DNA from: Chryseosolibacter histidinae
GTDB taxonomy: Bacteria; Bacteroidota; Bacteroidia; Cytophagales; Cyclobacteriaceae
Assembly: GCF_018598225.1 (NCBI RefSeq)
Contig: NZ_JAHESF010000057.1
Coordinates: 1 to 33,789, forward strand
DNA: 33,789 nucleotides
Direction of reading: 5' to 3'
How positions within the stretch are numbered: position 1 is the stretch's first letter; the number at the start of each line of letters is the position of its first letter. The position numbers were made by a program, and so were the translations under genes. Below the pieces are notes generated by a model. It saw only the letters and a list, made by a program, of their open reading frames with translations. It made no database searches and had not been told where the DNA came from. Positions 3,712 to 33,234 of this stretch are shown one piece after another.

Positions 3712-3800
3712 GTCCACAGTCGACTGTCCACGGTCCACAGTAGGGAGTGTTTTCGTTTTACACTGTTCTGCTGTGGACCGTTGTCTGTGGACCCGTGGAC
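3712..3800. repeat. GTCCACN heptad arrays in inverted orientation
   Basis: The left arm 3712-3739 is four exact 7-bp units (GTCCACA, GTCGACT, GTCCACG, GTCCACA). The right arm 3772-3800 holds the same unit on the other strand (TGTGGAC, CGTTGTC, TGTGGAC, then CGTGGAC after one extra base). The stretch 3731-3740 pairs perfectly with 3771-3780 (10 bp), so the 417-bp gap can fold into a hairpin. The array starts 7 nt after the asmA-like stop. The same GTCCACN unit recurs in the same orientation after gldE at 10067. No transposase is nearby. Confidence 0.85.
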
Positions 3801-3924
3801 TCCTTAACCCCGTAACTACACTTTATCGTCATTATTCTGCGGTTTGGCGCTGGCTTAATCAGCTCAGGCCGGCTTTGTGTGCGGACACCCACACGGGCGT
3901 ATTCATGGCAGCTAAAACCAATAA

Positions 3925-4002
3925 ATGGCTATGAAAACGTTCATCAGGGTCCTGTTCATTGTGCTGCCTTTTTTATGGTCAATTTTTATAATGCTGGGAT
4001 AA
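3925..4002 (+). CDS. Possible 25-residue single-span membrane peptide
   Basis: ATG at 3925 (or the second ATG at 3931) opens a short frame that ends with TAA at 4000-4002. The product has a short basic start (MKTFIR) followed by an unbroken run of Leu, Ile, Val, Phe and Trp, so it is one transmembrane helix and little else. A further ATG at 3905 opens a 9-codon frame (MAAKTNKWL) whose stop overlaps the ATG at 3931, which would allow translational coupling. The bias to hydrophobic residues is what suggests a real gene; there is no clear promoter or SD, and chance is possible. A strong hairpin terminator follows at 4074. The rest of 3801-4073 shows nothing I recognise. Confidence 0.3.
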   Translation: MAMKTFIRVLFIVLPFLWSIFIMLG

Positions 4003-4073
4003 ACCGGCATTTAATTCGAACGAGAAAGTACGATTGTAATTGGAGCCAGACCCAAAACCAATCCCTTTAAACC

Positions 4074-4103
4074 AAAAAAGGCCAGTGTTTGCTGGCCTTT
4101 TTT
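4074..4103. terminator. Intrinsic terminator, usable on both strands
   Basis: Positions 4074-4085 (A6 then GGCCAG) pair perfectly with 4092-4103 (CTGGCC then T6) around a 6-nt loop. On the minus strand it lies 18 nt after the RNase G stop and would end that operon; on the plus strand it would stop reading from the 3925 region. Confidence 0.88.
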
Positions 4104-4121
4104 AATGGTAATACTTTTCGT

Positions 4122-5678
4122 CTAGTTAGTGAGCTGGATCTCTTCACCTTCCTTGTTCAGGAACTTGTATTCTGTGATGGCCATGGAAGTATCTTTCACC
4201 AGGCTGATCCAGGTCTTGTATTTGAAATACCAACGCATGCGCTGGGAGATGAGCCCCTTGGTGTAGAAGGCATGCAGGTATGGATGCAGGGCCAGCACGA
4301 GGTTCTTCTCGTTCTGCTTCACCAGCAAATGTTCGATGTTCTTTTCGATGAGGTCAGAGACCAGGATAGACGCAGTGATCTTGCCCGTGCCGTTGCAGGT
4401 AGGACATACCTCGCGGGTTACGATGTTCATCTGCGGGCGAACGCGCTCACGCGTGATCTGCATGAGCCCGAACTTTGAAAGCGGCAGCACGGTAGACTTG
4501 GCTTTGTCATCCATCATCTCCTCTTTCATCACTTTATAGATCAGCTTTTTGTTGTCGAGGTTCTTCATGTCGATGAAGTCGATAACAATGATCCCACCCA
4601 TATCGCGCAGGCGGAGCTGACGTGCTATTTCCTTGGCAGCTTCGACGTTTACTGAAAGCGCTGTGGTTTCCTGGTTCTCTTCGCGGTTCGATTTGTTGCC
4701 ACTGTTCACGTCTATCACGTGCAGGGCTTCGGTATGCTCGATGATCAGGTATCCGCCACCCTTGAGGCTCACGGTTTGGCCGAATGCCGATTTGATCTGC
4801 TTCTCGATGCCGTAATGCTCGAAGATCTTGGCTTTTCCGGCGTAGTATTTTACGATCTTCTCTTTATCAGGCGCAATGGTCTTGATGTAGGTGCGCACCT
4901 CCTCGAACATCTTCTTGTCGTCAACATGCACATTGTCGAACGATTCGTTCAGCATGTCGCGCAATAAAGAAGAGGTTTTGTCGAGCTCGCCGATCACTTT
5001 GTCACGCGGGGCGGCCACGGGCAGGCGGGTCATGCCTTCTTCCCATGTTTTTACCAGGTTGCGGAGGTCGCGGTCGAGCTCGGCCACTTCCTTGTTCTCG
5101 GCTACGGTGCGGATGATCACACCGAAATTTTCAGGCTTGATAGATTGGATCAGGCGAAGCAGGCGTTTGCGTTCTTCGCTGCTGGTGATCTTTTTCGATA
5201 CGCTGACTGCATTGGAAAAAGGTACCAATACCAGGTACCTCCCAGCCAGGGATAACTCGCAGGACAATCGTGGCCCTTTGGTTGAGATCGGCTCTTTTAC
5301 AATTTGGACCGGTATAAGCTGATTCTTCGACAATTGCTGGGTGATCTTCCCGTGCTTGTCGATGTCCGGTTCAAGATTGAATTTGTCCAGTCTTCCACCA
5401 TTCATCTTTTTACCACGGACCAGCTTCGTAAACTTTTGAAGTGAACTGAACTGCGGTCCGAGATCGAGATAGTGCAGGAAAGCATCCTTGTCGTACCCAA
5501 CATCAATAAAGGCAGCATTTAAACCGGGCACCACTTTCTTAACAGTGCCCAGGTAGATATCCCCTACGGTAAATTTGCTTCCTTCTGCTTCCTGGTGGAA
5601 TTCAACCAGCGTCTTGTCTTTAAGAAGGGCTATACGACATCCGTCCTGAGTTGTACTAATTATTAGTTCGTTACTCAA
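4122..5678 (-). CDS. rng: Ribonuclease E/G family endoribonuclease (RNase G)
   Basis: The 518-residue product is a cytoplasmic single-strand endoribonuclease of the RNase E/G family, acting in rRNA 5'-end processing and mRNA decay. An S1-type RNA-binding region spans about residues 36-130 (VGDIYLGTVKKVVPGLNAAFIDVG). The Mg2+-binding acidic residues expected of the catalytic core are D323 (HVIDVNSGN) and D367 (IVIDFIDM); C425 and C428 (CPTCNGTG) form the Zn-link used for oligomerisation. It lacks the long RNase E C-terminal scaffold, so it is G-like. The start is TTG at 5676-5678, giving MSNELI; the frame is closed by TAA only five codons upstream and no ATG is available. It is the last gene of a minus-strand run with HU, TPR and the small basic protein. 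Confidence 0.95.
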   Translation of the reverse strand: MSNELIISTTQDGCRIALLKDKTLVEFHQEAEGSKFTVGDIYLGTVKKVVPGLNAAFIDVGYDKDAFLHYLDLGPQFSSLQKFTKLVRGKKMNGGRLDKFNLEPDIDKHGKITQQLSKNQLIPVQIVKEPISTKGPRLSCELSLAGRYLVLVPFSNAVSVSKKITSSEERKRLLRLIQSIKPENFGVIIRTVAENKEVAELDRDLRNLVKTWEEGMTRLPVAAPRDKVIGELDKTSSLLRDMLNESFDNVHVDDKKMFEEVRTYIKTIAPDKEKIVKYYAGKAKIFEHYGIEKQIKSAFGQTVSLKGGGYLIIEHTEALHVIDVNSGNKSNREENQETTALSVNVEAAKEIARQLRLRDMGGIIVIDFIDMKNLDNKKLIYKVMKEEMMDDKAKSTVLPLSKFGLMQITRERVRPQMNIVTREVCPTCNGTGKITASILVSDLIEKNIEHLLVKQNEKNLVLALHPYLHAFYTKGLISQRMRWYFKYKTWISLVKDTSMAITEYKFLNKEGEEIQLTN

Positions 5679-5716
5679 AAGACAAAGATTAAATTAAAAA
5701 AAATGATGTGTATAGG

Positions 5717-5744
5717 CTGGCAGCACTAGTTGTGATGCTGCCAG
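5717..5744 (-). other. Hairpin between the small basic protein gene and rng
   Basis: CTGGCAGCA at 5717-5725 pairs perfectly with TGCTGCCAG at 5736-5744 around a 10-nt loop. On the minus strand it follows the small gene's stop, and a run of eight T lies about 12 nt further on. It may be a partial terminator, an RNA-processing site or an mRNA end stabiliser that sets rng expression; the T run is too distant for a standard terminator. Confidence 0.5.
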
Positions 5745-5754
5745 AGAAATAAGA

Positions 5755-5844
5755 TTATTTCTTCTTATGTCTGTTCTTCCTGAGACGCTTCTTACGCTTG
5801 TGCGTAGCCATTTTGTGCTTCTTTCTTTTCTTTCCGCTAGGCAT
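5755..5844 (-). CDS. AURKAIP1/COX24-type basic protein (bS22/mS38-like), 29 aa
   Basis: ATG at 5842-5844 opens a 29-residue protein of almost only Lys, Arg and His, starting MPSGKKRKKHKMATHKRKKR. This is the sequence type annotated in Bacteroidota as AURKAIP1/COX24 domain protein, related to mitochondrial ribosomal protein mS38 and mycobacterial bS22, both bound to rRNA of the small subunit. The KMATHKRKKRLRKNRHKKK core is the recognisable part. Its place directly before the RNase G gene (76 bp) and after the TPR gene (49 bp) fits a ribosome or rRNA role. That it is a ribosomal subunit here is inference from family. Confidence 0.85.
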   Translation of the reverse strand: MPSGKKRKKHKMATHKRKKRLRKNRHKKK

Positions 5845-5893
5845 AGTAATGTTTTAGATTTTATCCGCGAGCGGGCGGATGGTTTAAACAACT

Positions 5894-6709
5894 TTATTTT
5901 AAATCCTTCAGATATGAATCAACCGTTGCCTGAACAGCGGGATCCTTATCCATTTGTTTCACTTTTTCAAATTGCGCCCGGGCCTTCTCCTTGTCTCCCT
6001 TGTTCATCCAGGCCAGTCCTAACAACAGGTGTCCCTGTATGTGGCCGGGATTCACCGTTACCAGCTCCTCCAGTCTTTCAATCGCCCGGTCGTACTGGCC
6101 CGACTGGATCGACAGCATGCCCATATTAAAAAGGGCCAGCTCGTTCTTCGGGTCTTTCGCCAGCACTTCCCTCAGCATAGTGATACCCTGCATGGGGTTC
6201 GACGATGTGAGGTACGTCATGGCCATCTTGGTCTTTATTTCGAGGTTGCCAGGGTTGTCCCGCAGCACCTTTCCATAAAACTCCTGGGTCTTCGCGGCCA
6301 GCGTTTTCTGCTTTGCCGGATCCAGCGCCAGGGTGTAAGCCTGATAGTAACTTTCACCTGCTTTTGCCCAGCTTTCAACGTTATTAAAGAACTTCGACGA
6401 CTCTTCAGCAAACCATGCCGCGCTATCGAACTGATTAGCAATCCGGTACAGGCCGGCTAAAGAGTCGGCAAAGATAGCATTTTTTTCCTTTTCTGTACCT
6501 GATGCAAATTTTGCCCTGAAATCACTGATCCGGGTCCGTACGTTTTCAGGGGTTTGTGTATGGGTTTCGATGTGCGAAGACACGGTATCGGCACCACCGC
6601 CTGCCGAAGCAGCATCCCGCTCATTCTCCACCACTACCTTGGGCAACTGAAAGAGCAACAGGATGACCACGGCACAGCCGCCGATCAATAAAAGACGTGT
6701 TTTAAGCAT
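5894..6709 (-). CDS. Membrane-anchored TPR protein, 271 aa
   Basis: Residues about 4-24 (TRLLLIGGCAVVILLLFQLP) are a single N-terminal membrane segment; the rest is soluble and helical. From about residue 100 to the end there are tandem tetratricopeptide repeats, visible as WAKAGESYYQAYTLALDPAK, AMTYLTSSNPMQGITMLREV, LALFNMGMLSIQSGQYDRAI and GHLLLGLAWMNKGDKEKARA. TPRs are protein-protein docking surfaces. The gene lies between HU and the small ribosomal-type protein, a neighbourhood I recognise as recurrent in Bacteroidota, but the partner is not known to me. ATG 6707-6709 precedes a normal TM segment and is a confident start. Confidence 0.88.
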   Translation of the reverse strand: MLKTRLLLIGGCAVVILLLFQLPKVVVENERDAASAGGGADTVSSHIETHTQTPENVRTRISDFRAKFASGTEKEKNAIFADSLAGLYRIANQFDSAAWFAEESSKFFNNVESWAKAGESYYQAYTLALDPAKQKTLAAKTQEFYGKVLRDNPGNLEIKTKMAMTYLTSSNPMQGITMLREVLAKDPKNELALFNMGMLSIQSGQYDRAIERLEELVTVNPGHIQGHLLLGLAWMNKGDKEKARAQFEKVKQMDKDPAVQATVDSYLKDLK

Positions 6710-6762
6710 AAAAGCCTGATGTGCGAGTGATGAGCGACAGTATTAGAAGCACACCGGTAGAT

Positions 6763-7068
6763 TTATTTTTCAGCAAGCTGCTTCACTTTTTCGCTGTTCT
6801 TGATCTTGTTGATGAAGATCTTCGCCGGCTTAAAGCTGGGGATGTAATGCTCGTCAATAACCAGCGCCGTGTTGCGGGAAATATTCCGTGCTATCTTCTT
6901 TTTCCTTTTCTTGTTGATAAAGCTGCCAAAACCACGGATATAAATGTTATTGCCATTTGACATCGATGACTTCACTACGCTGAAGAACGCTTCCACCGAT
7001 GCGGTCACATCCGCCTTGTCTACTCCGGTCTTTTCAGCGATCTCGTTGATAATATCTGCTTTGGTCAC
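6763..7068 (-). CDS. HU/IHF family DNA-binding protein
   Basis: A 101-residue histone-like nucleoid protein that binds and bends DNA as a dimer. TKADIINEIAEKTGVDKADV is the typical helical start, GNNIYIRGFGSF the family signature before the DNA-binding arm, and ARNISRNTALVIDEHYIPSFKPAK the arm and final strand. GTG at 7066-7068 is chosen because it gives the family's usual start (xTKADI); an extension to 7221 would run across the mutY start and add unrelated residues. A good -7 element lies 40 nt upstream. The Lys-rich insert INKKRKKKIA is typical of Bacteroidota members. Confidence 0.93.
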   Translation of the reverse strand: MTKADIINEIAEKTGVDKADVTASVEAFFSVVKSSMSNGNNIYIRGFGSFINKKRKKKIARNISRNTALVIDEHYIPSFKPAKIFINKIKNSEKVKQLAEK

Positions 7069-7107
7069 TGTAGTATATTTAGAGGTCTCAAAATTCTTAC
7101 GGGAGGG

Positions 7108-7115
7108 CAAATTTA
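7108..7115 (-). promoter_or_regulatory. -7 promoter element for the HU gene
   Basis: On the minus strand 7115-7108 reads TAAATTTG, a perfect TAnnTTTG. Its start site would fall about 30 nt before the GTG start and just inside the short gap shared with the divergent mutY. No clear -33 element is seen. Confidence 0.5.
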
Positions 7116-7168
7116 GTTTGCCTTGCCAGATTAAAAAATGAATATTGAAAAAATTGATTATCAAGGGG

Positions 7169-8227
7169 ATGGACAAACGATATTTTCCAGATAAAATCGT
7201 TAAGTGGTACGAGAGCAACAAAAGAAGCCTGCCCTGGCGCGATACCCGCGACCCATATAAAATATGGCTGTCTGAAATTATCCTTCAGCAAACGAGGGTA
7301 AGTCAGGGGTTGCCTTACTACCTGAGGTTCATCGAAGCGTATCCAACCGTGCGTGCATTGGCGGCTGCGCCCGAGCAGGAAGTGCTGCGGCTGTGGCAGG
7401 GACTGGGCTACTATACACGCGCCCGTAACCTGCACAAGTGCGCCAAAGCCGTGGTCAGCTTGCATAACGGCGAGTTTCCCCGAACCTATGAAACCCTGCT
7501 TAGCCTGCCGGGCATAGGTGAATATACGGCTGCTGCCATTGCGTCCATCGCTTTTAAGCAGGCCGTGGCGGTGGTGGATGGAAACGTTTTCAGGGTGCTT
7601 TCCAGGATCTTTGGCATCGATACGCCCATCAATTCGCCGGAAGGAAAAAAACAGTTCACCGCCCTTGCAAACGAGCTGGTGCCGACTGCCCAACCGGATG
7701 CCCATAACCAGGCGGTGATGGAGTTCGGAGCGCTTTTCTGCACGCCCCAAAATCCGCAGTGCGATACCTGTATCTTTCAAAAAAACTGTTTTGCCTTCAG
7801 CCGCAAAATGCAACAGGCACTGCCGGTGAAGCTCAAGCTGAAAGCAAGCCGCAAGCGGTACTTCTATTATATTGTGCTGGAACACCGGAATTCGCTGCTG
7901 ATGCGAAAGCGGGAACAGAAAGATATCTGGCTGGGATTATTCGATTTTCACCTGGTGGAAAAAAACCGGCCGGTAAAACCCGAAAAGATCCTGGAAGAAG
8001 AGGCTGTGAAAAAAATGGTTGGAAACGATGCCAGCATTACGATATCGAAGAATTACAAGCATATTCTCACGCACCAGACCATCTTTTCAAGATTTATCAT
8101 TGTAAAAAGTGACAAAAAGATCAAACATGTTCACCAAAACCATTCCTTCTATTCTTTGCCGCAGATCGCTGCGTTACCCAAACCGGTGTTGGTGAGTCGT
8201 TTTCTCCAGGAGCATTACGTTTTATAA
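7169..8227 (+). CDS. mutY: A/G-specific adenine DNA glycosylase
   Basis: MutY removes adenine mispaired with 8-oxoguanine, preventing G:C to T:A mutation. The 352-residue frame has the catalytic E36 (LSEIILQQTRV), the helix-hairpin-helix LPGIGEYTAAAI at about 113-124, the catalytic D137 (VVDGNVFRVLSR) and a complete [4Fe-4S] loop C191-X6-C198-X2-C201-X5-C207. The C-terminal third (from about residue 225) is the NUDIX-like domain that reads 8-oxoG. ATG 7169 is preferred over TTG 7145: it gives the usual MutY start and follows directly on AAGGGG. It is the first gene of a plus-strand block, divergent from HU. Confidence 0.96.
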   Translation: MDKRYFPDKIVKWYESNKRSLPWRDTRDPYKIWLSEIILQQTRVSQGLPYYLRFIEAYPTVRALAAAPEQEVLRLWQGLGYYTRARNLHKCAKAVVSLHNGEFPRTYETLLSLPGIGEYTAAAIASIAFKQAVAVVDGNVFRVLSRIFGIDTPINSPEGKKQFTALANELVPTAQPDAHNQAVMEFGALFCTPQNPQCDTCIFQKNCFAFSRKMQQALPVKLKLKASRKRYFYYIVLEHRNSLLMRKREQKDIWLGLFDFHLVEKNRPVKPEKILEEEAVKKMVGNDASITISKNYKHILTHQTIFSRFIIVKSDKKIKHVHQNHSFYSLPQIAALPKPVLVSRFLQEHYVL

Positions 8228-8250
8228 TTTTATAGTTGGCCGAAAGGTGG

Positions 8251-8258
8251 TACTTTTG
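8251..8258 (+). promoter_or_regulatory. -7 promoter element for ssb
   Basis: TACTTTTG matches TAnnTTTG, placing transcription start about 25-30 nt before the ssb ATG, so ssb has its own promoter after mutY. A TTG at 8236-8238 is closer than the usual -33 spacing, so the -33 box is unclear. Confidence 0.55.
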
Positions 8259-8292
8259 TTTCCTTACGCTGTAACCAAAACGAACTGAATAT

Positions 8293-8739
8293 ATGTCTGG
8301 AGTAAATAAAGTAATTCTGGTAGGCCGCCTGGGAAAGGAGCCTGAAGTACGCAACCTTGACAACGGAGCAGTGGTTGCCAACTTCTCAATTGCTACTTCT
8401 GAATCTTATAAAGACCGTACCACTGGTGAGAAGAAAGAGATCACCGAGTGGCACAACATCGTTTTGTGGAGAGGTCTGGCGGAGATCGCACAAAAATATG
8501 TTCATAAAGGTGACCTCGTCTATATTGAGGGCAAGCTGCGCACGCGCTCATGGGAAAAAGACGGTGTTACAAGATATACCACTGAAGTTGTGGCCGATAA
8601 TATGACGATGCTGGGTTCGCGGGGTGGCGGAGGAGGAAACTCTTCTTCCAATGAATATGGGTCACGCAGTACGGAACGTGCCTCCAGTGAAAGCTACAAT
8701 ACGCCGGCAGATAACAGCACCGATGATCTGCCTTTCTGA
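8293..8739 (+). CDS. ssb: Single-stranded DNA-binding protein
   Basis: A 148-residue SSB that coats single-stranded DNA during replication, repair and recombination. The OB fold covers about residues 1-105 ([20 protein letters not shown], then [30 protein letters not shown]). A Gly/Ser-rich flexible linker follows and the protein ends in the acidic tip DDLPF, the docking site for partner enzymes. Length is normal. ATG at 8293 gives the standard start. It lies between mutY and gldE, a common Bacteroidota order. Confidence 0.97.
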
Positions 8740-8759
8740 GGACCTAATGTTTACACTGC

Positions 8760-10064
8760 TTGGACGAGCCTCCCGGTTTTAGTTTACTGGTAATTTTATC
8801 CGATAGGAGCCTGCTGTATCTTTTCTTTATGGCAGTGTTCCTGTTTTTTTCTGCATGGGCTTCTGCAGTAGAGGCTGCGTTTTTTTCACTTCACAACGAT
8901 GACGTTGAGCGCTTACGGAATAGCGCCGATGAACGCGAGAAGGTGGCGGCTATACTGGTGATCGATCCGCGCCTGCTGCTAAGCGTGCTCACCACGTGCA
9001 AATACGCCATGCTGCTGTCGGCGGCTGTGATGTCTGTATCATCGCTCGCCTATGAACAATCGCGTTATACACTCTTCGATGTATCGGCGGGCACAGCGTT
9101 GCTGGTGCTTACCATACTCTTCGCCCTGGGAGGTGTGATCCTGCCGAAGATCTACGGCTCTTCGCGCAGCATCGGCATCGCCCGGGCCAACAGCAAATTG
9201 TGCTACCGGCTGATCCTTTTTTTAAGACCGCTGCTACGCCCCCTGTTGAGAGCGTCGATCGCTGTTGAAAAAAAGCTGGACGCCACCAAAGAGCAGAAGT
9301 CGGTGGAGCATCTCACCAAAGCGCTTCAGCTGGCAACGGTTGACAATGAACCGATCGAAGGAGAAAAAGAGATCCTTGAAGGTATTGTGAATTTCGGAAC
9401 ACTCACCGTGCGGCAGGTGATGAAACCCCGCACGGAGATCTCGTACACCGATGTTTCGCTCGACTTTCACCAGCTGATGGAATTTGTGAAACGTTCAGGA
9501 TTTTCGAGGGTACCGGTATGCCGGGAGTCGCTCGACAGCGTGCAGGGATTCCTTTATATCAAAGACCTGCTGCCCTTTCTCGAAGAAGGACGCGATTTTG
9601 GATGGCAGCGACTGCTCAGGCCCGGATACTTCGTTCCTGAAACAAAAAAAATAGACCTGCTGCTCAAAGATTTCCAGGAGAAAAGAGTGCACATGGCGCT
9701 GGTGGTCAACCATCATGGCAATACCACCGGACTGATCACGTTAGAAGATATCATCGAAGAGATCATCGGCGACTTCAATGACGAGTTCGATGAGGTGGGT
9801 GCCCGCTTTCAAAAGCTCAGCGATGGAACTTTTGTGTTTGATGGTAAAACCTCGCTGTATGAGTTCTGTAAGGTGCTGCATGTAGACCCGTCACTTTTTC
9901 ACCGCGTGAAAGGCATCAATGAGTCACTGAGCGGCGTGCTGACGGAGTTCAATGGAACCCTCCCGGCGGTTGGCGATGAAATTGTGATCAGCCCGTTCAC
10001 CTTTGTGATCGAATCAGTGGATCATAAACGGATCAAAAAAGTTAAAGTAAAGAGAAATGGTTAA
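8760..10064 (+). CDS. gldE: Gliding motility-associated protein GldE
   Basis: A 434-residue membrane protein of the CNNM/HlyC/CorC type. Three to four hydrophobic segments in the first 170 residues form the CNNM (DUF21) part; from about residue 200 a CBS pair follows ([14 protein letters not shown], then [24 protein letters not shown]), and the end (from about 345) is the CorC/HlyC-type domain. GldE is known next to GldD and can support GldD function in gliding. The start is TTG 8760 giving MDEPPGF; no in-frame ATG occurs before MAVFLFF at 8829, which would cut the first membrane segment. Its last 8 nt overlap gldD. Confidence 0.93.
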
Positions 10065-10728
10065 GAGTCCACTGTCCACTGTCCACAGTCCACGGCAGAG
10101 TCGTACCCGGCGGGCGCAGCGTACCTCGTACCTCGTACTTCGTACCTGTTCACTAGCCTTGTTAGTATTGACACTCTTCTCGTCCTGCGATCGTGAGTAC
10201 CTCCCCAAACCTCTTGGTTATAACCGGCTCGATCTGCCGGAGCCCGCGTATCGCCCGTTGCCCGATACATTTCCGTACCGCTTCGAATATTCCACGCACG
10301 CAAAGCTGCTCGACGATTCCTCCGGCTTCAGCGAGCGTTACTGGATCGAGATCTATTATCCGCTGCTGAAGTCTAATGTGCACATCACCTACAAGCCGCT
10401 GCGCGAAAATCAGAAGTTGCTCAAAGAATTTTTGGACGATGCCTACAAGCTCACCGCCAAACACCAGATCAAAGCCTATGCCATCAACGAGGTGATCACC
10501 ACCACGCCCAGTGGAAAAACCGCAGTGATTGCCGAGCTCGAAGGCGAAGTACCGAGCCAGTTTCAGTTCACCATCACCGACTCTACACGACATTTTCTGC
10601 GGGGTGCGCTTTATTTCAACACCAAAGTTCAGAATGACTCGCTGGCGCCGGCCATTGAGTACATGAAGAAGGATATTATGCACTTGATCAATACGCTGGA
10701 GTGGAGAGGAGGAAGAATTAAGAATTAA
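10057..10728 (+). CDS. gldD: Gliding motility lipoprotein GldD with repeat-built N-terminus
   Basis: GldD is a lipoprotein essential for gliding and linked to type IX secretion. The mature part is recognisable ([22 protein letters not shown], then [12 protein letters not shown]). The lipobox is LFSSC with the lipidated Cys at residue 44. Unusually, 43 residues precede it instead of about 20, because two heptad arrays (10067-10094 and 10121-10148) are read as residues 4-13 and 22-31. ATG 10057 overlaps the gldE stop; no ATG or GTG lies between it and the hydrophobic core, and TTG codons within the core would leave too short a signal. So the repeats seem to serve as a long, Arg-rich n-region. 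The stop codon is also inside a repeat. Confidence 0.93.
10067..10094 (+). repeat. Four GTCCACN heptads after the gldE stop
   Basis: Exact units GTCCACT, GTCCACT, GTCCACA and GTCCACG begin 2 nt after the gldE stop and lie inside gldD. It is the same unit and orientation as at 3712. Confidence 0.9.
10121..10148 (+). repeat. Four GTACCTC-type heptads inside gldD
   Basis: Units GTACCTC, GTACCTC, GTACTTC and GTACCTG form an exact 28-bp array, a second unrelated heptad family 26 bp after the first. A lone related GTACCCG sits at 10103. Confidence 0.88.
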
Positions 10729-10794
10729 GGAGTAAGGAGTAAGGAGTAAGGAGTAAGGAGGAGAAGCCAGGAGTCAGGAGCCAGAAGTCAGAAG
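10726..10794 (+). repeat. TAAGGAG x5 and YCAGRAG x4 heptads at the gldD stop
   Basis: Five exact TAAGGAG units fill 10726-10760; the TAA of the first is the gldD stop codon. After 6 nt come four units CCAGGAG, TCAGGAG, CCAGAAG and TCAGAAG at 10767-10794. The change from one family to the other within one array suggests stepwise growth. Between 10795 and 10875 I see nothing else. Confidence 0.9.
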
Positions 10795-10875
10795 GGGTAC
10801 TTTATTTAAAAACATTAGGTTGTCTTGAGAGAAAAGTCGTTAGTTTTAAATGACTAGGATCAATAGTATTAAGTT

Positions 10876-14722: not shown

Positions 14723-14820
14723 CAGGATTATCAGGATTACAGGATTTTCAGGATTACGGGATTTTCAGGATGAGCAGGATTTTGACCAGGATTATGCAGG
14801 ATTTTCGGGATGGACAGGAT
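14723..14820 (+). repeat. CAGGAT array, mostly 8-9 bp spacing
   Basis: CAGGAT occurs at 14723, 14732, 14740, 14749, 14766, 14775, 14787, 14797 and 14815, with the variant CGGGAT at 14757-14758 and 14806. Spacing is mostly 8 or 9 bp with one of 12. It fills almost the whole 122-bp gap between the stops of the two convergent genes. Unlike the other arrays it has no 7-bp period and no inverted arm. Confidence 0.88.
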
Positions 14821-14842
14821 TAACAGCCTTTGATTCGAAGAT

Positions 14843-17536: not shown

Positions 17537-17606
17537 TTCCCGCAGATCACGCTGATTTTCGCAGATTTAGTGCATGATCTGCGTTCATCTGCGTAATCCG
17601 CGGGAA
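17537..17606. repeat. CGCAGAT palindromic repeat
   Basis: Direct CGCAGAT-type units at 17541, 17550 (CGCTGAT) and 17560 face inverse units ATCTGCG at 17577 and 17587, closed outside by TTCCCGC and GCGGGAA. The whole 70 bp can fold into one hairpin. It ends 7 nt below the stop of the peptidase gene and separates it from the regulator promoter. I know CGCAGAT/ATCTGCG repeats of this type from many intergenic regions of Bacteroidota. Confidence 0.82.
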
Positions 17607-24233: not shown

Positions 24234-24235
24234 GG

Positions 24236-26293: not shown

Positions 26294-26352
26294 ACACAAT
26301 ACTACTGAGAAAGCGTGATAACCGCGAGGGCTGTGTGAAGAGTTAGTAATCT

Positions 26353-26528
26353 GTTGCCAGTTGCCAGTTACCGGTTGCCAGTTTGTTGCGGGTGTTAATT
26401 ATCACTGTTGTATTTCAATTCTGGTGAAGAACTTCGCTTATCTCAAATCTCACGTGTCACCCGATCGGAGCAGGCCAGTGAAAGTGTACCCCACTTAAAC
26501 CGGCAACTGGCAACCGGTAACCGGAAAC
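26353..26528. repeat. Two inverted arms of four GTTGCCR heptads each
   Basis: The left arm 26353-26380 has GTTGCCA, GTTGCCA, GTTACCG and GTTGCCA. The right arm 26501-26528 has CGGCAAC, TGGCAAC, CGGTAAC and CGGAAAC, the same unit on the other strand. Both have exactly four 7-bp units and lie 120 bp apart. The right arm begins 4 nt after the ispH stop. Between the arms (26381-26500) I find no gene or promoter that I can support. Confidence 0.88.
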
Positions 26529-26532
26529 AGTT

Positions 26533-27750: not shown

Positions 27751-27774
27751 AACGGCGTGTTTTTAAATCAGGCA

Positions 27775-27782
27775 CAAAGGTA
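27775..27782 (-). promoter_or_regulatory. ispH: -7 promoter element for ispH
   Basis: On the minus strand 27782-27775 reads TACCTTTG, a perfect TAnnTTTG. The start site would fall close to 27768, about 18 nt before the ATC codon, which supports translation from near 27750 and not from GTG 27645. Confidence 0.55.
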
Positions 27783-27867
27783 AGACAAATCGGAGTTTGA
27801 GACCTGATTTGAAAATAAAAGGTGAGTGAAGGCGCCGTAATTGCGTCTGGCGGTGAAAGAAAATAAG

Positions 27868-27902
27868 AAAACCTGCAGCCACGTTTAATAGCCGCAGGTT
27901 TC
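27868..27902 (-). terminator. Terminator of the HtrA operon
   Basis: On the minus strand AAACCTGC (27901-27894) pairs with GCAGGTTT (27876-27869), followed by TTCTTATTTTC. It lies 8 nt after the stop of the 57-residue gene and separates it from the ispH promoter region. Confidence 0.7.
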
Positions 27903-27909
27903 AAATGCT

Positions 27910-28083
27910 TTATGCTGCCTTGGAAAGCTTATCTTCTTCTATCGTGTTTTTGCGGGGCTCTTTCTTTTCCATGTCGAACCACATCACTTCAACGAGGTTC
28001 TTTTTAATGTACTTGAGAACTTCCACCACTTTTCCATCAATTTTACTGCGAACGCGTTCGCCTTTCCTGAACAGTCTTCTCAT
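27910..28083 (-). CDS. Small basic protein, DUF2158/YodC-like, 57 aa
   Basis: ATG 28081-28083 to TAA 27910 encodes a highly charged 57-residue protein. The start RRLFRKGERVRSKIDGKVVE and the centre VEVMWFDMEKKEP resemble the short beta-barrel of YodC-like (DUF2158) proteins, which have the pattern G-x-x-V then W-F; the match is by eye only. It is 14 nt after the HtrA gene on the same strand and before a terminator, so it is the second gene of that operon. Function is unknown. Confidence 0.75.
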   Translation of the reverse strand: MRRLFRKGERVRSKIDGKVVEVLKYIKKNLVEVMWFDMEKKEPRKNTIEEDKLSKAA

Positions 28084-28097
28084 AATATTACTACAAT

Positions 28098-29579
28098 TTA
28101 CATTCTGAAAGCGTAGTTGTACTCCCTCAGGGAATTTTCGTATCGGCCTGAGAGAATCACAAGCTCACCAGCTTTCTTTCTTTTCAAGAGCTCATTGAAT
28201 TCTTTAACGGATTTTACAGGAGTTTCGTTGACCTTGGTGATGATGAACCCTTCACGGATATCCGTGTAACGGGCCAGTTTGCCATTGCCGAGGTCTTTGA
28301 TCCTCACTCCATTTTCAATATCAAGATTTTTAAGAACTTTTGCATCTACATCTTCCAATTCCATGCCGAGTGATGCAAATCCGCTGCGATCTTCAGCTTT
28401 GATAGCAGTGGTTGCGCCTTCGCGTGTTTTCAGCACTACAGGGAACGTCAGCTCTTTACCTTTGCGGTTTACAGTAACGTCGAGCTTATCGCCGGGACGA
28501 TGTCTTCCAATATACTCAATTAATGCAGTATTGGAACGAATCGTTGTATTATCAATTTTTGTCACTACATCACCTTCCCTTAATCCAGCTTCTTTTGCAG
28601 AGCTCGATTCGGCAAAAGCTGCGATGTAAGCACCTTCGCGAACAGAAAGATCATATTGTTTGGCAAGCTGGCTGTTCACAGGCTGGATGGAAACACCGAG
28701 CCAGCCGCGCTGAACCACGCCGAACTTCAGCAGGTCTTCAACGATTTTGCTTACTATATCAGACGGAACCGCGAAACCATACCCTGAATAAGCACCGGTA
28801 GGACTTGCAATGGCCGTGTTGATACCCAGCAAACCTCCCTGGAGATCTACCAACGCGCCACCACTGTTACCGGGGTTGATGGCCGCGTCTGTCTGAATAA
28901 AAGACTCGATGGCCGTGCTGCCCTGCTCAGAGTTTCTGCTCAGGATGTTGATGCTTCTTCCCTTCGCGCTGATAATACCAGCTGTTACAGTAGAGTTGAG
29001 GTTGAATGGATTTCCTACAGCCAAAACCCACTCGCCAACCTTCGCATTGTCTGAGTCTACGAAAGAAAGATAAGGCAATCCTTTTTCCTGGATCTTGATC
29101 AATGCAATATCCGTGTCGGGATCAGTACCCACTACTTCGGCTTTGTAGGTTCTGTTGTCGAGCAGTGAAACTTCGATGTCGTCTGCATCCTGCACCACGT
29201 GATTGTTGGTTACAATGTAGCCGTCTGCGTTAATGATCACACCTGAACCTGCGCTCTGGCTGGGACCGGGTTGCTGAAAACGCGGTCCGAAAAATTCTCT
29301 GAAAGGATCATTCTCCTGCGTCTCTTCTCTCCTGTTACCGTCTTGTGACGATTTGATGTGCACCACCGCCGGCATTACTTTTTCTGCCGCGCCGGTAAAA
29401 TCAAGCGGCACTGCTTTTCCGTCTGCATTCACCGTATACGCTACCTTGCTGGCAGGTACGTTGGCCGTATATTCTATCGCCGCTTTCCCCTGGTTATCTT
29501 CCTCCAAAAACTGGTAGGATGCAACTGTACAGACGCTTCCCAGAACAGCTGCGAGAAATAATGAACTGAATCTTCTCAT
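28098..29579 (-). CDS. Periplasmic serine protease, HtrA/DegP family
   Basis: A 493-residue Do-like protease for envelope protein quality control. Residues 1-24 (MRRFSSLFLAAVLGSVCTVA) are a signal peptide or anchor. The trypsin-like triad is H127 (TNNHVV), D157 (DTDIALIKI) and S239 (NPGNSGGAL). Two PDZ domains follow, at about 285-385 (GWLGVSIQPVNSQLAKQYDL) and 395-490. ATG 29577-29579 is preferred; TTG 29591 adds only four residues. The leader is 250 bp and divergent from the AraC-type gene. The 57-residue gene follows in the operon. Confidence 0.96.
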   Translation of the reverse strand: MRRFSSLFLAAVLGSVCTVASYQFLEEDNQGKAAIEYTANVPASKVAYTVNADGKAVPLDFTGAAEKVMPAVVHIKSSQDGNRREETQENDPFREFFGPRFQQPGPSQSAGSGVIINADGYIVTNNHVVQDADDIEVSLLDNRTYKAEVVGTDPDTDIALIKIQEKGLPYLSFVDSDNAKVGEWVLAVGNPFNLNSTVTAGIISAKGRSINILSRNSEQGSTAIESFIQTDAAINPGNSGGALVDLQGGLLGINTAIASPTGAYSGYGFAVPSDIVSKIVEDLLKFGVVQRGWLGVSIQPVNSQLAKQYDLSVREGAYIAAFAESSSAKEAGLREGDVVTKIDNTTIRSNTALIEYIGRHRPGDKLDVTVNRKGKELTFPVVLKTREGATTAIKAEDRSGFASLGMELEDVDAKVLKNLDIENGVRIKDLGNGKLARYTDIREGFIITKVNETPVKSVKEFNELLKRKKAGELVILSGRYENSLREYNYAFRM

Positions 29580-29741
29580 ATCATTGAACAATTTATTTAA
29601 CTGTATTTTGAATTAATGAACAAATGTTTTGCAAAAACTACGCAGGTAGATGTTTACAGGAAATTTTGTCAGTTTCTGGCCCCCCGTTTCTAACTTTTTT
29701 CTGCCGCCCTCTGCCTAAACGTAGGTTTTGTAATCTAAGTA

Positions 29742-29753
29742 CGAAATATTTCG
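29742..29753. promoter_or_regulatory. Perfect 12-bp palindrome in the htrA/araC divergent gap
   Basis: CGAAATATTTCG is fully self-complementary and lies 85-96 bp before the AraC-type start codon in the 258-bp gap between divergent genes. It may be an operator for either gene. No perfect TAnnTTTG element could be placed with confidence next to it, and the rest of the gap shows nothing else I can name. Confidence 0.4.
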
Positions 29754-29837
29754 GACTTTGTTTCCGGCTATTCCCTGAACGGTAAATTGTACCTCCCGGA
29801 ATGCTGAAATAAGCTTACCTTAGAGAATAATCTAACG

Positions 29838-30632
29838 ATGGAATACTCAACATTCGTTCCAAATCCACAGCTTCAGCATGTTGTTGAATGCTACTGGATT
29901 GTTGAGGGTTCTGACACCGTAACGCAGAAGATCATTCCCGACGGCAGCAGCGAGCTGGTGTTTCATTTCGGTGATCGTTACAAAGTTCATAGGAAAGGCG
30001 CTCCGGAAACACTTCAAAGTTTCGCGATCGCCGCAGGCCAGCTCAATAAACCTATTTTTCTTACACCCACAGGCAACAGCGGTGTGCTCGGTGTGAAGCT
30101 TCGGCCGCTCGGTATGTGGCGGCTGCTTGGCTGCGATATGCATCTGCTCACCAACGAGACCTATGCGCTGGGAGATGTGTTGGATCGGGAGACAGAAGAT
30201 CTCGCTGAGAAGATCCGAAGTGCTGGCAACAACCAGGAAAGGATCCGTATGGTTGAAACATTTATGTTGCACCGTGTCAAGCGAAAGGATCCTTCTGCCA
30301 TCGAGCCACTGATCAGCGAGATCCATCAGCATCAGGGCCAGGTTTCTATCAGCGAGCTCTCGGGGAAGTTTAAGGTCTCGGGCCGGAAAGTAGAGCGGCT
30401 TTTTCTGCAGCAGGTGGGCGTATCAGCAAAACTGTATTCAAGGCTCGTGCGGTTTGCGCATGTTTACAGGTTGGTGCAGCAGCCCGAGCTTACAAAAGCG
30501 GAGGCGACGTATTTGTGCGGATATTTCGACCAGGCACACTTCAACAAGGAATTCAGGGAGTTTACAGGTGAGAATCCTGAATCGTATTTCAGTCAGAACC
30601 ATGCGTTCTCGAATTTTTTTCTGAACCGATAG
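29838..30632 (+). CDS. AraC family transcription regulator, 264 aa
   Basis: The C-terminal part (about 160-255) is the AraC/XylS double helix-turn-helix: VSISELSGKFKVSGRKVERL for the first and LCGYFDQAHFNKEFREFTGE for the second, with the family's FDQAHF-x(3)F pattern. The N-terminal part (LQHVVECYWIVEGSD, then PDGSSELVFHFGD and LGVKLRPLGMW) is the DUF6597-type sensor common in this group, whose ligand is not known. ATG 29838 fits the domain start. Its target is unclear; the divergent htrA gene is one candidate. Confidence 0.9.
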   Translation: MEYSTFVPNPQLQHVVECYWIVEGSDTVTQKIIPDGSSELVFHFGDRYKVHRKGAPETLQSFAIAAGQLNKPIFLTPTGNSGVLGVKLRPLGMWRLLGCDMHLLTNETYALGDVLDRETEDLAEKIRSAGNNQERIRMVETFMLHRVKRKDPSAIEPLISEIHQHQGQVSISELSGKFKVSGRKVERLFLQQVGVSAKLYSRLVRFAHVYRLVQQPELTKAEATYLCGYFDQAHFNKEFREFTGENPESYFSQNHAFSNFFLNR

Positions 30633-30668
30633 TCGTGTAGCTGGTTAAAGTTCTAGTGTGCATTAGGA

Positions 30669-30984
30669 GGCTCGCAAGGAGCCGAAAAATGTGTTGTACA
30701 ATGTTCTAGAGACAGGCTGCTCCTGACGGAGCTTTTAAGAGCCATTGGGACGACAATGTATGGAGGGGATATTATCACTGAACAGAAGCCAAAGGAATGT
30801 ATCGAGCAATTTCTAAAGGCAACGGCTCATGAAGGGCGCTTTAGTGATATATCGCGAGGCAATTTGTTCTGAGCGAAATGTATCCAGGGACTTATTTCTA
30901 AACTCCGTTAGGAGTTCCCTGTCTCTAGCTACGAAATGCCAATTTGCGGCATGGCTCCGTAGGAGCCGCCTGAAATGCAGGCCC
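30669..30984. repeat. Cluster of REP-like hairpins (CTCC-TNAC-GGAG)
   Basis: The 501-bp gap 30633-31133 has no gene I can support. It has four small hairpins: GGCTC/GAGCC at 30669-30683, GCTCC-TGAC-GGAGC at 30719-30732, AACTCC-GTTA-GGAGTT at 30901-30916 and GGCTCC-GTA-GGAGCC at 30953-30967, plus ATGCC/GGCAT around 30936-30952. All share the core CTCC-NNN-GGAG. They look like a decayed array of REP-type palindromes. 30985-31133 shows nothing further apart from the leader of the next gene. Confidence 0.75.
30706..30928. mobile_element. Candidate MITE/BIME-like unit with about 30-bp terminal inverted repeats
   Basis: CTAGAGACAGG at 30706-30716 is the exact inverse of CCTGTCTCTAG at 30918-30928. 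The similarity continues inward on both sides through CTCCTGACGGAG (left) and, read inward on the minus strand, CTCCTAACGGAG (right), so the inverted repeats are about 30 bp with few mismatches. The 223-bp unit has no coding frame. It may be a small non-autonomous element or a pair of inverted REPs. Confidence 0.5.
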
Positions 30985-31133
30985 CAGTGATTAGGGAAGT
31001 GAGATCTGGTACGAACACATGCTGGGCGCAGAATACCGAGACAGTGGCATTTTCAAGTGACGGTTTGATAGTCGTGTCGTTTTTTTACAAGACATTGATG
31101 TGACACTGTCTGTTCTTTGATCAAAAAAAATAT

Positions 31134-31583
31134 ATGAAAAAACAAATCATGATCATGAGTGTATGCCTGCTGATCGCGGGCGCATCGCAAGCACAGGTGA
31201 AAGAATTCGCATGGCTGGTAGGCACCTGGAAAATAAAAGACAAGATGGTCTTTGAAAGGTGGAAACCTGCGCGCGATGGCAAAGCGCTCGAAGGTTTTTC
31301 TTTCAGGATAAAGGGCACCGATACCGTTGCGATGGAACAGATCCGTTTCATATATGAGGGAAATTCATTTCACTACATTCCAGATCTTGCGGGAGATCAG
31401 CCGCCGGTAGATTTCAAGCTCACACAACACAACGCGCAGGGTTTTGTAGCCGAAAATCCGCAACATGATTTCCCGAAGGTCATCCGTTACAAACTGATCC
31501 GTAAAGAAAATGCAGATGTGATCGAGGCGTCTATTGAAGGTGATGGTAAAGTCATTCCATACCACTTCGAAAGGGTGAAATAA
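31134..31583 (+). CDS. Secreted DUF6265-like protein, 149 aa
   Basis: MKKQIMIMSVCLLIAGASQAQ is a signal peptide. The mature part begins EFAWLVGTWKIKDKMVFERW and continues GKALEGFSFRIKGTDTVAME, ENPQHDFPKVIRYKLI and a final strand; this is the pattern of DUF6265/lipocalin-like small beta-barrels whose first motif is W-x-x-G-x-W. The function is unknown, with binding of a small hydrophobic ligand possible. ATG 31134 is the natural start for the signal peptide. Confidence 0.83.
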   Translation: MKKQIMIMSVCLLIAGASQAQVKEFAWLVGTWKIKDKMVFERWKPARDGKALEGFSFRIKGTDTVAMEQIRFIYEGNSFHYIPDLAGDQPPVDFKLTQHNAQGFVAENPQHDFPKVIRYKLIRKENADVIEASIEGDGKVIPYHFERVK

Positions 31584-31684
31584 AATCACCCCCAATACGG
31601 TATTTCTTGTTTTTGAGAAACTTTTTATAAAAATGACGCATCTGACGTAAAACAAGAGTAGTCATTATCACGTAAGTGAGGGTA

Positions 31685-31843
31685 ATGGAAAACTTATACT
31701 CAGCCTGGCCCGAAAATTCGAATGAAGACAACAAGCATGAAGAAGCCTATCGTTTGTTGCGCAAGCTGAAGTATGCCCTGGTGTTCTGGCTTGTAGCTTT
31801 TCTGGGTACCATCATTTGGTTTACCAATTCTCCCGCATTCTGA
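31685..31843 (+). CDS. Single-span membrane protein, 52 aa
   Basis: ATG 31685 to TGA 31841-31843 encodes 52 residues: an acidic soluble start (MENLYSAWPENSNEDNKHEE), a basic turn (AYRLLRKLKYA), then one membrane helix (LVFWLVAFLGTIIWF) and a short end. The ordered acidic-basic-hydrophobic layout is not what random DNA gives. It lies 48 nt before the rlmI-like gene on the same strand. I do not recognise a family. Confidence 0.65.
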   Translation: MENLYSAWPENSNEDNKHEEAYRLLRKLKYALVFWLVAFLGTIIWFTNSPAF

Positions 31844-31865
31844 GTTACCCCATGATAGTTTTTGA

Positions 31866-31873
31866 TACTTTTG
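31866..31873 (+). promoter_or_regulatory. -7 promoter element for the rlmI-like gene
   Basis: TACTTTTG, a perfect TAnnTTTG and identical to the element before ssb, lies 18 nt before the ATG. The -33 element is not clear. Confidence 0.5.
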
Positions 31874-31891
31874 CGTTCTTGACGCAGCAGT

Positions 31892-33076
31892 ATGACCATC
31901 CCCGGTAAAATCACACTTAAGAAAGGTAAAGAAATCTCGATCCGTCGCTTGCATCCGTGGATCTTTTCAGGGGCCATTCAGAAAATGGAAGGCGAAGCAG
32001 CGGATGGTGGCTGGGTAGAAATCCAGGATGCCCGCGCCTCAACGCTGGGGTTCGGCCACTATCAGAACGGTAGCATTGCCGTGAGGATGCTCTCCTTTGA
32101 AAACACACCGCCATCAGAAAATTTTTGGGAAGAAAAACTTCAGCGTGCCTGTCAGCTGCGCGCCGCTGCCGGCCTGCCCTCTGCTGCCACCAACGCCATG
32201 AGGCTGATCCACGGAGAGGGTGATGGCTTACCCGGCCTGATCATCGATTACTACGACGGCATTGCCATTATCCAGGCCCACTCGGTGGGTATGCATCACG
32301 ACCGGCTGCATATTGCCGCTGCGTTGCAAAAAGTGATGGAAGGCACCAAAGCCATTTATTATAAAAGTCAGTCGACCCTGCCCGGCAAGATGCGCGATGC
32401 CAAACAAGACGAATACCTGCTGGGCATGGGCATTGTGCCGCACATTGTGCTGGAATACAACAACAAGTTTTATATCGACTGGGAAGAAGGTCAGAAGACA
32501 GGATTTTTTCTCGATCAGCGTGAGAACCGGAGGCTGCTGGGCGATTTCTCCAAAGGCAAAAATGTGCTGAACACGTTCTGTTATACCGGCGGATTTTCCG
32601 TGTATGCCCTCAACGCCGGCGCCGCGCTGGTACATTCCGTCGATGCTTCTGAAAGGGCCATCGACCTCACGCGCAAGAACCTGGAGCTGAACGGCTTCAG
32701 TCCCAACATCCACCAGTGTTATGCTGTAGATACCTTCGATTTCCTGAAAGACAAACAGGACGTTTATGATGTGATCGTGCTCGATCCGCCAGCTTTTGCC
32801 AAACACCGCGATGCCCGGCACCAGGCTGTGCGTGGCTACCAGCGGCTCAACGCCGAGGCCATGCGCGTGATCAAACCCGGCGGCGTGATCTTCACCTTCT
32901 CGTGCTCGCAGGTGGTTGACCGCCAGCTGTTCTACGATACCGTAGTCTCCGCCGCCATCCAGGCCGGCCGCCAGATCAAGGTCCTCCACCACCTCTCACA
33001 ACCCGCTGACCATCCGGTGTCGATCTTTCACCCTGAGGGGGAATATTTGAAGGGGCTGGTTTTGTATGTAGAGTGA
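31892..33076 (+). CDS. rlmI: RlmI-like 23S rRNA (cytosine-5) methyltransferase
   Basis: A 394-residue SAM-dependent methyltransferase of the RlmI/COG1092 group. The N-terminal PUA domain is at about 1-75 (LKKGKEISIRRLHPWIFSGA, then GGWVEIQDA); a central linker domain follows with IHGEGDGLPGLIIDYYDG; the Rossmann domain starts at about 205 with FFLDQRENRRLL and NTFCYTGGFSVYA (SAM binding), then VLDPPAFAK and FTFSCSQ, where the Cys is the expected nucleophile. In E. coli RlmI methylates C1962 of 23S rRNA; the same site here is inference. A heptad repeat array starts 5 nt after the stop. Confidence 0.9.
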   Translation: MTIPGKITLKKGKEISIRRLHPWIFSGAIQKMEGEAADGGWVEIQDARASTLGFGHYQNGSIAVRMLSFENTPPSENFWEEKLQRACQLRAAAGLPSAATNAMRLIHGEGDGLPGLIIDYYDGIAIIQAHSVGMHHDRLHIAAALQKVMEGTKAIYYKSQSTLPGKMRDAKQDEYLLGMGIVPHIVLEYNNKFYIDWEEGQKTGFFLDQRENRRLLGDFSKGKNVLNTFCYTGGFSVYALNAGAALVHSVDASERAIDLTRKNLELNGFSPNIHQCYAVDTFDFLKDKQDVYDVIVLDPPAFAKHRDARHQAVRGYQRLNAEAMRVIKPGGVIFTFSCSQVVDRQLFYDTVVSAAIQAGRQIKVLHHLSQPADHPVSIFHPEGEYLKGLVLYVE

Positions 33077-33081
33077 GCAAT

Positions 33082-33234
33082 AATTGACAATTGACAAAAT
33101 GGCAATTGACAATGGGAGAGCTTCGGCTAACCCGACAGTGCGCTGATTCGAATTGACAACATATCCGTAAAAGTGAGTCCAACCGTTGTCAACTGCTCCG
33201 ATAGCTTGCTATCGGAATTTGTCAATTGTCAACT
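33082..33234. repeat. AATTGAC heptads at both convergent gene ends, with a central hairpin
   Basis: After the rlmI stop come AATTGAC at 33082 and 33089 and again at 33104; after the stop of the opposite gene the inverse units GTCAATT (33221-33227) and GTCAACT (33228-33234) appear. Single copies lie between, at 33151. TCCGATAG (33197-33204) pairs with CTATCGGA (33209-33216) around loop CTTG. Read along each gene, the unit has the same orientation after each stop. The paired arms may act as a two-way terminator. Confidence 0.85.

Follow-up and report, generated by a model that had tools for sequence, protein, structure and literature searches.

Heptad arrays behind stop codons in Chryseosolibacter histidinae: inverted elements of several families and their possible role at 3' gene ends

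Contig NZ_JAHESF010000057.1 of Chryseosolibacter histidinae (assembly GCF_018598225.1) contains eight gene ends at which a short tandem repeat begins a few nucleotides (nt) behind the stop codon or includes it. Most of these repeats are heptads, and the repeated word changes from one gene end to the next. Why should arrays that agree in period and place, and differ in sequence, be found behind stop codons? The window analyzed here is the entire contig (G000:C75), 33,789 bases in length, from a source genome of 8.04 Mb. A preliminary description of the window proposed that one process makes heptad arrays at 3' gene ends, perhaps as terminators or other structures of the mRNA end.

The explanation favored here is that the arrays are arms of dispersed elements, which resemble REPINs (doublets of repetitive extragenic palindromic, or REP, sequences that form hairpins), fill the slot at the 3' end of genes and probably act as RNA stem-loops. 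The probability assigned to this reading, with the function inferred, is about 0.5. It is built on a 7-nt period, inverted pairing, matching of families between paired arms, proximity to stop codons and, in a few cases, turnover at orthologous gaps.

Period, pairing and position of the heptad arrays

The arrays were studied in a sample of 1.18 Mb of the source genome, comprising nine contigs, including that of the window. As these contigs were picked for containing matches to the GTC family, sampled densities are not genome averages. Genes were taken from a home-made caller script. In the 159.7 kb of intergenic DNA, 114 arrays with a period of 7 were found at a score of at least 12. The multiples 14, 21 and 28 gave 82, 29 and 12 arrays and all other periods from 2 to 30 gave 0–6 each, while first-order Markov shuffles of the intergenic DNA gave no period-7 arrays. 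Seven family patterns were defined on these same data and therefore a family-free detection was also run. Here, 121 period-7 arrays were found in the 1.18 Mb, and at most 7 for any other period from 4 to 13. Lowering the threshold produced 197 arrays of many word families, among them AAACTTT (23), ACAGTCC (21) and ACCTCGT (20).

Six of the seven patterns gave arms of three or more units, the exception being AATTGAC, which gave none. There are 356 such arms and 319 of them lie outside called genes. When neighboring arms no more than 450 nt apart are taken together (140 pairs), the arms point toward each other in 105 pairs, point apart in 4 and have the same orientation in 31. In 85 of the 105 facing pairs both arms belong to the same family, where 23.3 would be expected. 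The arms also have a preferred size: GTC chains contain four units in 73 of 95 cases, three in 20 and five in 2, and 98 of the 197 arrays of all families span 28–34 nt. Chains of the AGTTTMA family range from 3 to 9 units. The groups of exactly four units and the inverted arms that had been pointed out in the window are therefore found in the sample as well.

The loop between facing arms has a length that is typically characteristic of the family. In the AGGTACG family it is 13–34 nt in 15 of 17 elements, and some of these loops, of about 20 nt, resemble each other by eye. Loops of the GGTAATC family are 1–53 nt, those of the GTC family 44–208 nt (13 of 31 at 74–84 nt) and those of the GTTRCC family 82–122 nt. 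Arm-to-arm pairing is present in 167 of 168 predicted folds, either in register or offset, frequently by a whole number of units. For same-family pairs with loops shorter than 200 nt, 69–86% of the arm bases are paired arm to arm, in register or, often, with a shift of 7. The predicted fold energies of single arms average -1.6 to -5.0 kcal/mol.

Two further proposals about the words themselves were rejected. A core common to all families was sought in GTGTT, which was counted inside versus outside the elements as 11 versus 3 of 44 for GTTRCC and 10 versus 4 of 102 for GTC, with no clear result in the other four families. The proposal that the heptads provide a stop codon in every frame was dropped after inspection by eye, as the GTC and AGGTACG words have no stop triplet on the strand read.

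Position was evaluated against a chance model in which the same element is placed randomly within its own gap. The outermost arm edge is within 10 nt of the stop codon at 117 of 206 gene 3' ends, versus 53.8±3.8 by chance, and within 20 nt at 130. At 5' gene ends there is no excess (15 of 172 within 10 nt, versus 18.5±3.5). Family-free detection gave 92 of 187 3' ends versus 41.8±3.3 and, at 5' ends, a deficit (8 of 147 versus 16.5±3.1). Arrays are held by 46 of 131 convergent gaps, 26 of 132 divergent gaps and 95 of 574 co-directional gaps in the sample. In convergent gaps with at least two arms (n=26), a median of only 7.5 nt is left outside the arms, versus a median length of 70.5 nt for convergent gaps free of elements.

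Canonical terminators with a T tract occupy a different position: their median start is 27 nt past the stop codon, and 5 of 35 begin within 10 nt. At co-directional gene ends they accompany none of 60 stop-adjacent elements, 9 of 48 elements further off and 25 of 316 ends without an element. Stop-adjacent elements in co-directional gaps thus stand without canonical terminators beside them.

The eight gene ends of the window

The names of the eight genes were verified with Pfam and the coordinates were re-read. Repeats are present at all eight ends, the distance behind DPPIV being 9 nt and not 7. The features are as follows.

3711..3740, plus strand: left arm of the GTC family, four heptads, 6 nt past the asmA-like stop (3704)
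3772..3801, minus strand: right arm of the GTC family, inverted, with a 31-nt loop to arm 3711..3740
10067..10093, plus strand: GTC-family arm, four heptads, 2 nt past the gldE stop (10064)
10120..10147, minus strand: AGGTACG-family arm (CGTACCT on the plus strand), four heptads, facing the gldE GTC arm
10713..10760, plus strand: AAGGAGT array with the gldD stop codon (10726-10728) inside it
10762..10794, plus strand: AGAAGCC-type array, directly after the AAGGAGT array
14723..14826, plus strand: CAGGAT repeats without a strict 7-bp period, 2 nt past the YCII-domain stop (14720)
17539..17604, minus strand: CGCAGAT copies in an inverted arrangement with irregular spacing, 9 nt past the DPPIV stop (17614, minus strand)
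26353..26383, plus strand: left GTTGCC-family arm of the ispH-side element, four heptads
26498..26528, minus strand: GTTGCC-family arm, 4 nt past the ispH stop (26533, minus strand)
33082..33113, plus strand: AATTGAC arm, one unit imperfect, 5 nt past the rlmI-like stop (33076)
33220..33234, minus strand: AATTGAC arm, inverted, 3 nt past the stop of the DUF4440/SnoaL (NTF2-like) gene (33238, minus strand)

The strict 7-bp period attributed to most of these ends applies to six of them, and not to the CAGGAT and CGCAGAT runs. In a tandem-repeat scan of the window the CAGGAT run scores at periods 9, 17, 40 and partly 12, and no row of the scan covers the CGCAGAT copies. At the gldE-gldD junction the facing arms belong to two different families, GTC and AGGTACG.

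The arms at this junction may be coding. If gldD begins at the ATG at 10057, which is within gldE, both arms would be translated at the N-terminus of its product, ahead of the lipoprotein signal (10057-10165; by eye). At a related locus, L104, TGCCTAC heptads at the gldE-gldD junction would code for part of the gldD signal peptide (by eye). Elsewhere in the window there is a 501-nt gap (30633-31133), the counterpart of which is 62 nt in congener G002, and the last 20 bases of the contig are all G (33770-33789), probably an artifact of sequencing or assembly.

Unit order within arms and turnover among relatives

Units within an arm are not identical and their order provides information about how arms arise. 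Identical unit orders recur between loci in the GTC family, with 16 pairs versus 3.1 under free assortment among all 78 four-unit arms, and 15 versus 8.2 (p 0.03) among the 51 arms without CCAT or CGAT units. In the AGGTACG family there are 12 identical pairs versus 2.9. Recurrence was not established for AGRAGYM (1 pair versus 0.1, p 0.11) or GTTRCC (0 versus 0.3). Free assortment of units is therefore rejected for GTC and AGGTACG, and not for the other two families. Because unit orders recur in the former, these arms seem to be copied or bound to a pattern, and not made afresh by slippage.

The GTC family has an additional rule, which concerns its middle units. Exactly one GTCGAY unit is present in 60 of the 78 four-unit arms, versus 36.6 if units were independent; with few exceptions it occupies position 2 or 3, and it is not found at position 4. 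In a genome-wide list of GTC arms, which overlaps the sampled contigs, 91 of the 100 arms listed (of 136) have GTCGAY at exactly one middle unit, versus 52 expected. Of the 31 inverted GTC pairs, 22 have one GTCGAY unit per arm. In 16 of these it is unit 3 in one arm and unit 2 in the other, in one it is the same unit (2,2) and in the remaining 5 the positions are (1,2), (2,1) or (3,1), although in some of these the outer unit is doubtful. The rule was found after looking at the data and was then checked on seven further GTC pairs from contigs outside the sample, all of which follow it.

GTC arms thus read A-P-Q-A and A-Q-P-A, and an in-register stem therefore keeps its mismatches in the middle. 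The signal in the unit order of pairs is strong for GTC (27 pairs, permutation p <0.0001), borderline for AGRAGYM (5 pairs, p 0.05) and was not found in GTTRCC (6 pairs) or AGGTACG (10 pairs). In 22 four-unit arms from other genera the one-variant rule fails. The middle-unit rule may reflect avoidance of a perfect palindrome, or it may have another cause. Descent of GTC as a polar element is unsupported since the inner and outer flanks show no polarity (p 0.31 and 0.32), though the arms differ in unit order.

Two congeners, G002 (Fulvivirgaceae bacterium JP3-4) and Chryseosolibacter indicus PWU20, were compared. The words in G002 are mostly different and include GGAACCT, GAATGAC and AAGCTTC, and yet G002 repeats the period, the pairing and the stop rule. 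There are 54 arrays with period 7 and at most 6 for other periods from 4 to 13. An array is within 10 nt of the stop codon at 33 of 62 3' ends, versus 16.9±2.0. Neighboring arrays are inverted in 22 cases, direct in 5 and tied in 2, and arrays are held by 17 of 93 convergent and 2 of 94 divergent gaps. The two genome-wide expectations of the preliminary description, namely arrays nearer to stop codons than chance and an excess of the 7-bp period, consequently hold in both the 1.18 Mb sample and G002. Arrays in G066 and G073 (200 kb each) and in G001 (144 kb) are too few for testing the rules.

At single gene ends, the elements come and go. The pattern GTCCACNGTCSACNGTCSAC has 286 matches in the source genome and none in the two congeners; a search of 148 family genomes also recovered it in 13 others, and the reversed control had 1 match overall. 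Behind asmA, C. indicus has a T-tract terminator where the source genome has the GTC hairpin, with alignable sequence behind it, and where the AATTGAC element follows the rlmI-like gene, the corresponding gap of G002 contains a different long inverted repeat (both by eye). Among 80 related loci around gldE (1.41 Mb), 12 arrays were found at a score of at least 11, and 6 of these, at five loci and with four different words, lie behind gldE; a looser scan behind gldE flagged six of the 80 loci. In these loci, too, an array at the gldE-gldD junction can fall within the N-terminal codons of gldD.

A further comparison is between G066 and G122, sister species of another genus with aligned blocks mostly 79–94% identical (one 74%). 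There are 19 comparable gaps, 6 of which have arrays in at least one species. At one gap a GTC element in G066 corresponds to an ATGACCG element in G122, and the flanking sequence, comprising the end of the upstream gene and the 5' leader of the downstream gene, is conserved. This nearest comparable pair shows replacement and not insertion, and no filled and empty sites similar enough to reveal a target-site duplication were found. At the other array-bearing gaps similar words are kept or the unit number is changed, and one gap gains an array in G122.

Some elements have a composite structure. At loci L222 (7473 onward), L224 (5768-6200) and L229 (1001-1252), an outer GTC arm pair surrounds an inner pair, GTCCAC being outside GTCCAT or the reverse (by eye), and these concentric elements resemble nested or loop-replacing insertions. 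A second dispersed palindromic repeat (GTCATYCTGAACG-like ... GAAGGATC) lies within several heptad loops, in the source genome at C11:228890, C35:73427 and C35:64342 and, in G122, at gap 65. At L231 (G094:C295), positions 2278-2640 hold six copies of a 60-bp tandem unit, which consists of last codons, a TAG stop and a GTC arm and is followed by ACTTACC-type heptads; the gene carrying the unit is, we assume from the type of its sequence, a GDP-fucose synthase-like gene.

Known repeat systems, competing explanations and significance

Among bacterial heptanucleotide repeats, those of Calothrix are named STRR. Since 2007 it has been noted that, among longer simple repeats, heptads are the most frequent class in many bacterial genomes (cited in PMC4679880, PMC4692102). 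Calothrix, with several tandem heptanucleotides in one genome, is mentioned in PMC4692102. The GGGAATC heptads of Xanthomonas and the GGGGA(C/T)T heptads of Nostoc are intergenic and lie very close to stop codons or overlap them; the former mostly have four units, form 70 and 75 close inverted pairs in two species and have been linked to G-quadruplexes (PMC4692102). The elements of the source genome are like those of Xanthomonas in period, four units (a weak peak in G002), inverted pairing and proximity to stop codons. They differ in that Xanthomonas has one G-rich word, whereas the source genome has six families plus minor ones, and one swap of families was seen, between G066 and G122. None of the 356 arms has four G3 or C3 tracts, and a G-quadruplex role is rejected. 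Since several families that are not G-rich keep the layout, G-quadruplexes cannot be a general reason for heptads.

In other systems the layout is less similar. TAACTGA heptads, known from Beggiatoaceae, cyanobacteria and Bacteroidetes, are likewise mostly intergenic and patchy across phyla; in BOGUAY they are mostly direct sets before start codons (PMC4679880), unlike the inverted pairs after stop codons found here. Geobacter metallireducens has 49 elements with four GGACCGG heptads, and other sites with tandem heptads or octads (PMC2700814). These elements, found both inside genes and between them, were interpreted as regulatory RNA or as sites for regulators, and the part of the description available contains no stop-codon rule (PMC2700814). 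The Geobacter elements and the TAACTGA sets may belong to the same theme.

What was thought unusual about the arrays, their stop-codon rule and their multiple families, is thus only partly so. The stop-codon rule is already known, having been published for Xanthomonas GGGAATC (PMC4692102). What sets the present elements apart as a novel form of known heptad and REP-like repeats is the combination of several families, inverted arms of four heptads, exchange between families and the internal GTC rule. No prior report of many such families in one genome, or of family swaps, was found among the matches listed in the literature on heptad repeats with stop codons, REP and REP-associated tyrosine transposases (RAYTs), and Bacteroidetes, a search with most subscription journals outside it. 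The same matches include no paper joining the Xanthomonas, Geobacter and TAACTGA heptads.

The REP and REPIN literature supplies the nearest model. A REPIN is an inverted pair in which the arms are conserved and the spacer less so (PMC3116915). Of 496 E. coli REPs, 260 were proposed to act from within 15 nt of the stop codon, slowing ribosome release (cited in PMC12306157), and the larger set of PMC12306157 itself gives 446 of 4,072. The heptad elements share with these the dispersed extragenic inverted pairs, the conserved arms, the less conserved spacer, the several groups per genome (PMC3116915, PMC12306157) and the large share near stop codons. They differ in that their arms are tandem heptads and not palindromic REPs, and in the absence of a RAYT link at 31 loci.

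The mechanism proposed for the REPIN-like elements is as follows. Each would consist of two inverted arms of about four tandem heptads around a mostly unique loop of family-typical length, with several families of different words coexisting in one genome. The element would occupy the stretch from the stop codon to whatever conserved feature comes next, either an opposite stop or the next promoter region, and would replace the usual 3' untranslated region. In the mRNA, the arms would fold into a stem of 20–30 bp directly behind the stop codon. The stem may end the transcript, protect it or brake its transcription or decay, or slow ribosome release, as has been reported for REPs of E. coli. The 7-nt repeat of the arms would allow the stem to re-form one unit inward while the terminating ribosome covers the first unit. 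The elements would spread or be swapped as cassettes by a copying route without a link to Y1 (RAYT) transposases at the 31 loci. What is retained of the proposed single process is a shared architecture with differing words and a tie to 3' ends. A process that simply makes heptad arrays is not, since most arrays belong to inverted elements as their arms, and identical unit orders recur in two families.

A number of observations weigh against this proposal. Called genes contain 37 of the 356 arms. Complementarity within a pair is not significantly above that with other pairs of the family (permutation p 0.09–0.98), and therefore neither selection for a fine-tuned stem nor compensatory pairing is seen. 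Among the 74 loops that are 30 nt or longer, only 16 show any match to another loop, in most cases a partial one, and there are no recent full-length copies, unlike active miniature inverted-repeat transposable elements (MITEs) or REPINs; the homologous interior expected between MITE copies is thus missing. The four-unit peak is weak in G002, where 18 of 70 arrays span 28–34 nt and 20 of 70 span 35–41 nt. The distribution is patchy, and the 12 arrays of the loci around gldE stand beside 8 for period 6 and 9 for period 12. The clear family swap is one case among the 6 array-bearing gaps of the 19 compared. The terminator deficit loses its significance once convergent gaps are counted too (7 of 142 versus 39 of 422, p 0.11). 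A T tract follows 6 of 35 stop-adjacent elements in co-directional gaps and, finally, the flanks of Y1 genes show no enrichment in arrays, of which 4 were found at 3 of 31 loci (3.9 per 100 kb).

The last two points bear directly on two competing explanations. Movement of the elements as true REPINs, that is, as non-autonomous transposons mobilized by Y1 (RAYT) transposases, is very improbable. Inverted pairs and several families are what such elements would produce, and Y1_Tnp genes are present in 121 of 148 family genomes, with 4 in the source genome, where an AGGTACG element is about 460 nt from the Y1 match of locus L010. However, among the 46 Y1 matches in 8 genomes, 31 loci were examined and arrays near the Y1 gene were the exception; young full-length copies are also lacking. 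Ordinary intrinsic terminators, repetitive by chance, are hardly more credible, despite the predicted hairpin fold, the excess in convergent over divergent gaps and the GTC hairpin in place of a terminator at asmA. An intrinsic terminator is a stem followed immediately by a T tract, and this describes few of the stop-adjacent elements. In addition, canonical terminators begin further downstream than the arms, which mostly lie within 10 nt of the stop codon, where a terminating ribosome should interfere (PMC4824070). The classical terminator role that had been suggested is therefore unlikely.

Historically, heptads were proposed to arise by slippage (Mrazek 2007, as cited in PMC4679880, PMC4692102). 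Here, the arrays would be made in place by polymerase slippage with 7 nt favored, and would be tolerated nowhere but in the unoccupied space behind stop codons. Differences in unit number at the gldE junction of two similar metagenome-assembled genomes (4 in L117, 7 in L126) and between G066 and G122 fit this explanation, and the broad range of AGTTTMA chains is of the kind expected. Slippage should, however, give a broad distribution of unit numbers and words private to a locus. Instead, the GTC count peaks at four, the same words are common to many of the 197 arrays, identical unit orders exceed free assortment in two of the four families tested, arms occur as inverted same-family pairs and GTC arms have one central variant. 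Slippage as the origin of the arrays is thus unlikely. It is also improbable that each arm is bound by a protein with four modules spaced 7 nt apart, different families being served by different paralogues. The four-unit arms with position-specific variants would suit such a protein, and the Geobacter heptad and octad sets, mostly paired, were annotated as putative global regulator sites (PMC2700814), but for a regulator it would be odd to have its sites behind stop codons instead of at promoters.

A wider possibility, which is speculative and rated well short of even odds, is that four-heptad inverted elements form one general class of bacterial 3' ends, named differently across phyla. Here, the period and layout, and not the word, would be functional; the stem would be a deliberately imperfect one that slides by units beside the terminating ribosome, and families would be swapped wholesale like cassettes. 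That families which are not G-rich keep one layout points to period and pairing as the reason for heptads. The GTC middle-unit rule provides a sharp handle for mutational tests. If the REPIN-like elements do set the 3' ends of mRNAs, they would shape the expression of many genes and would constitute a fast-evolving, swappable end signal.

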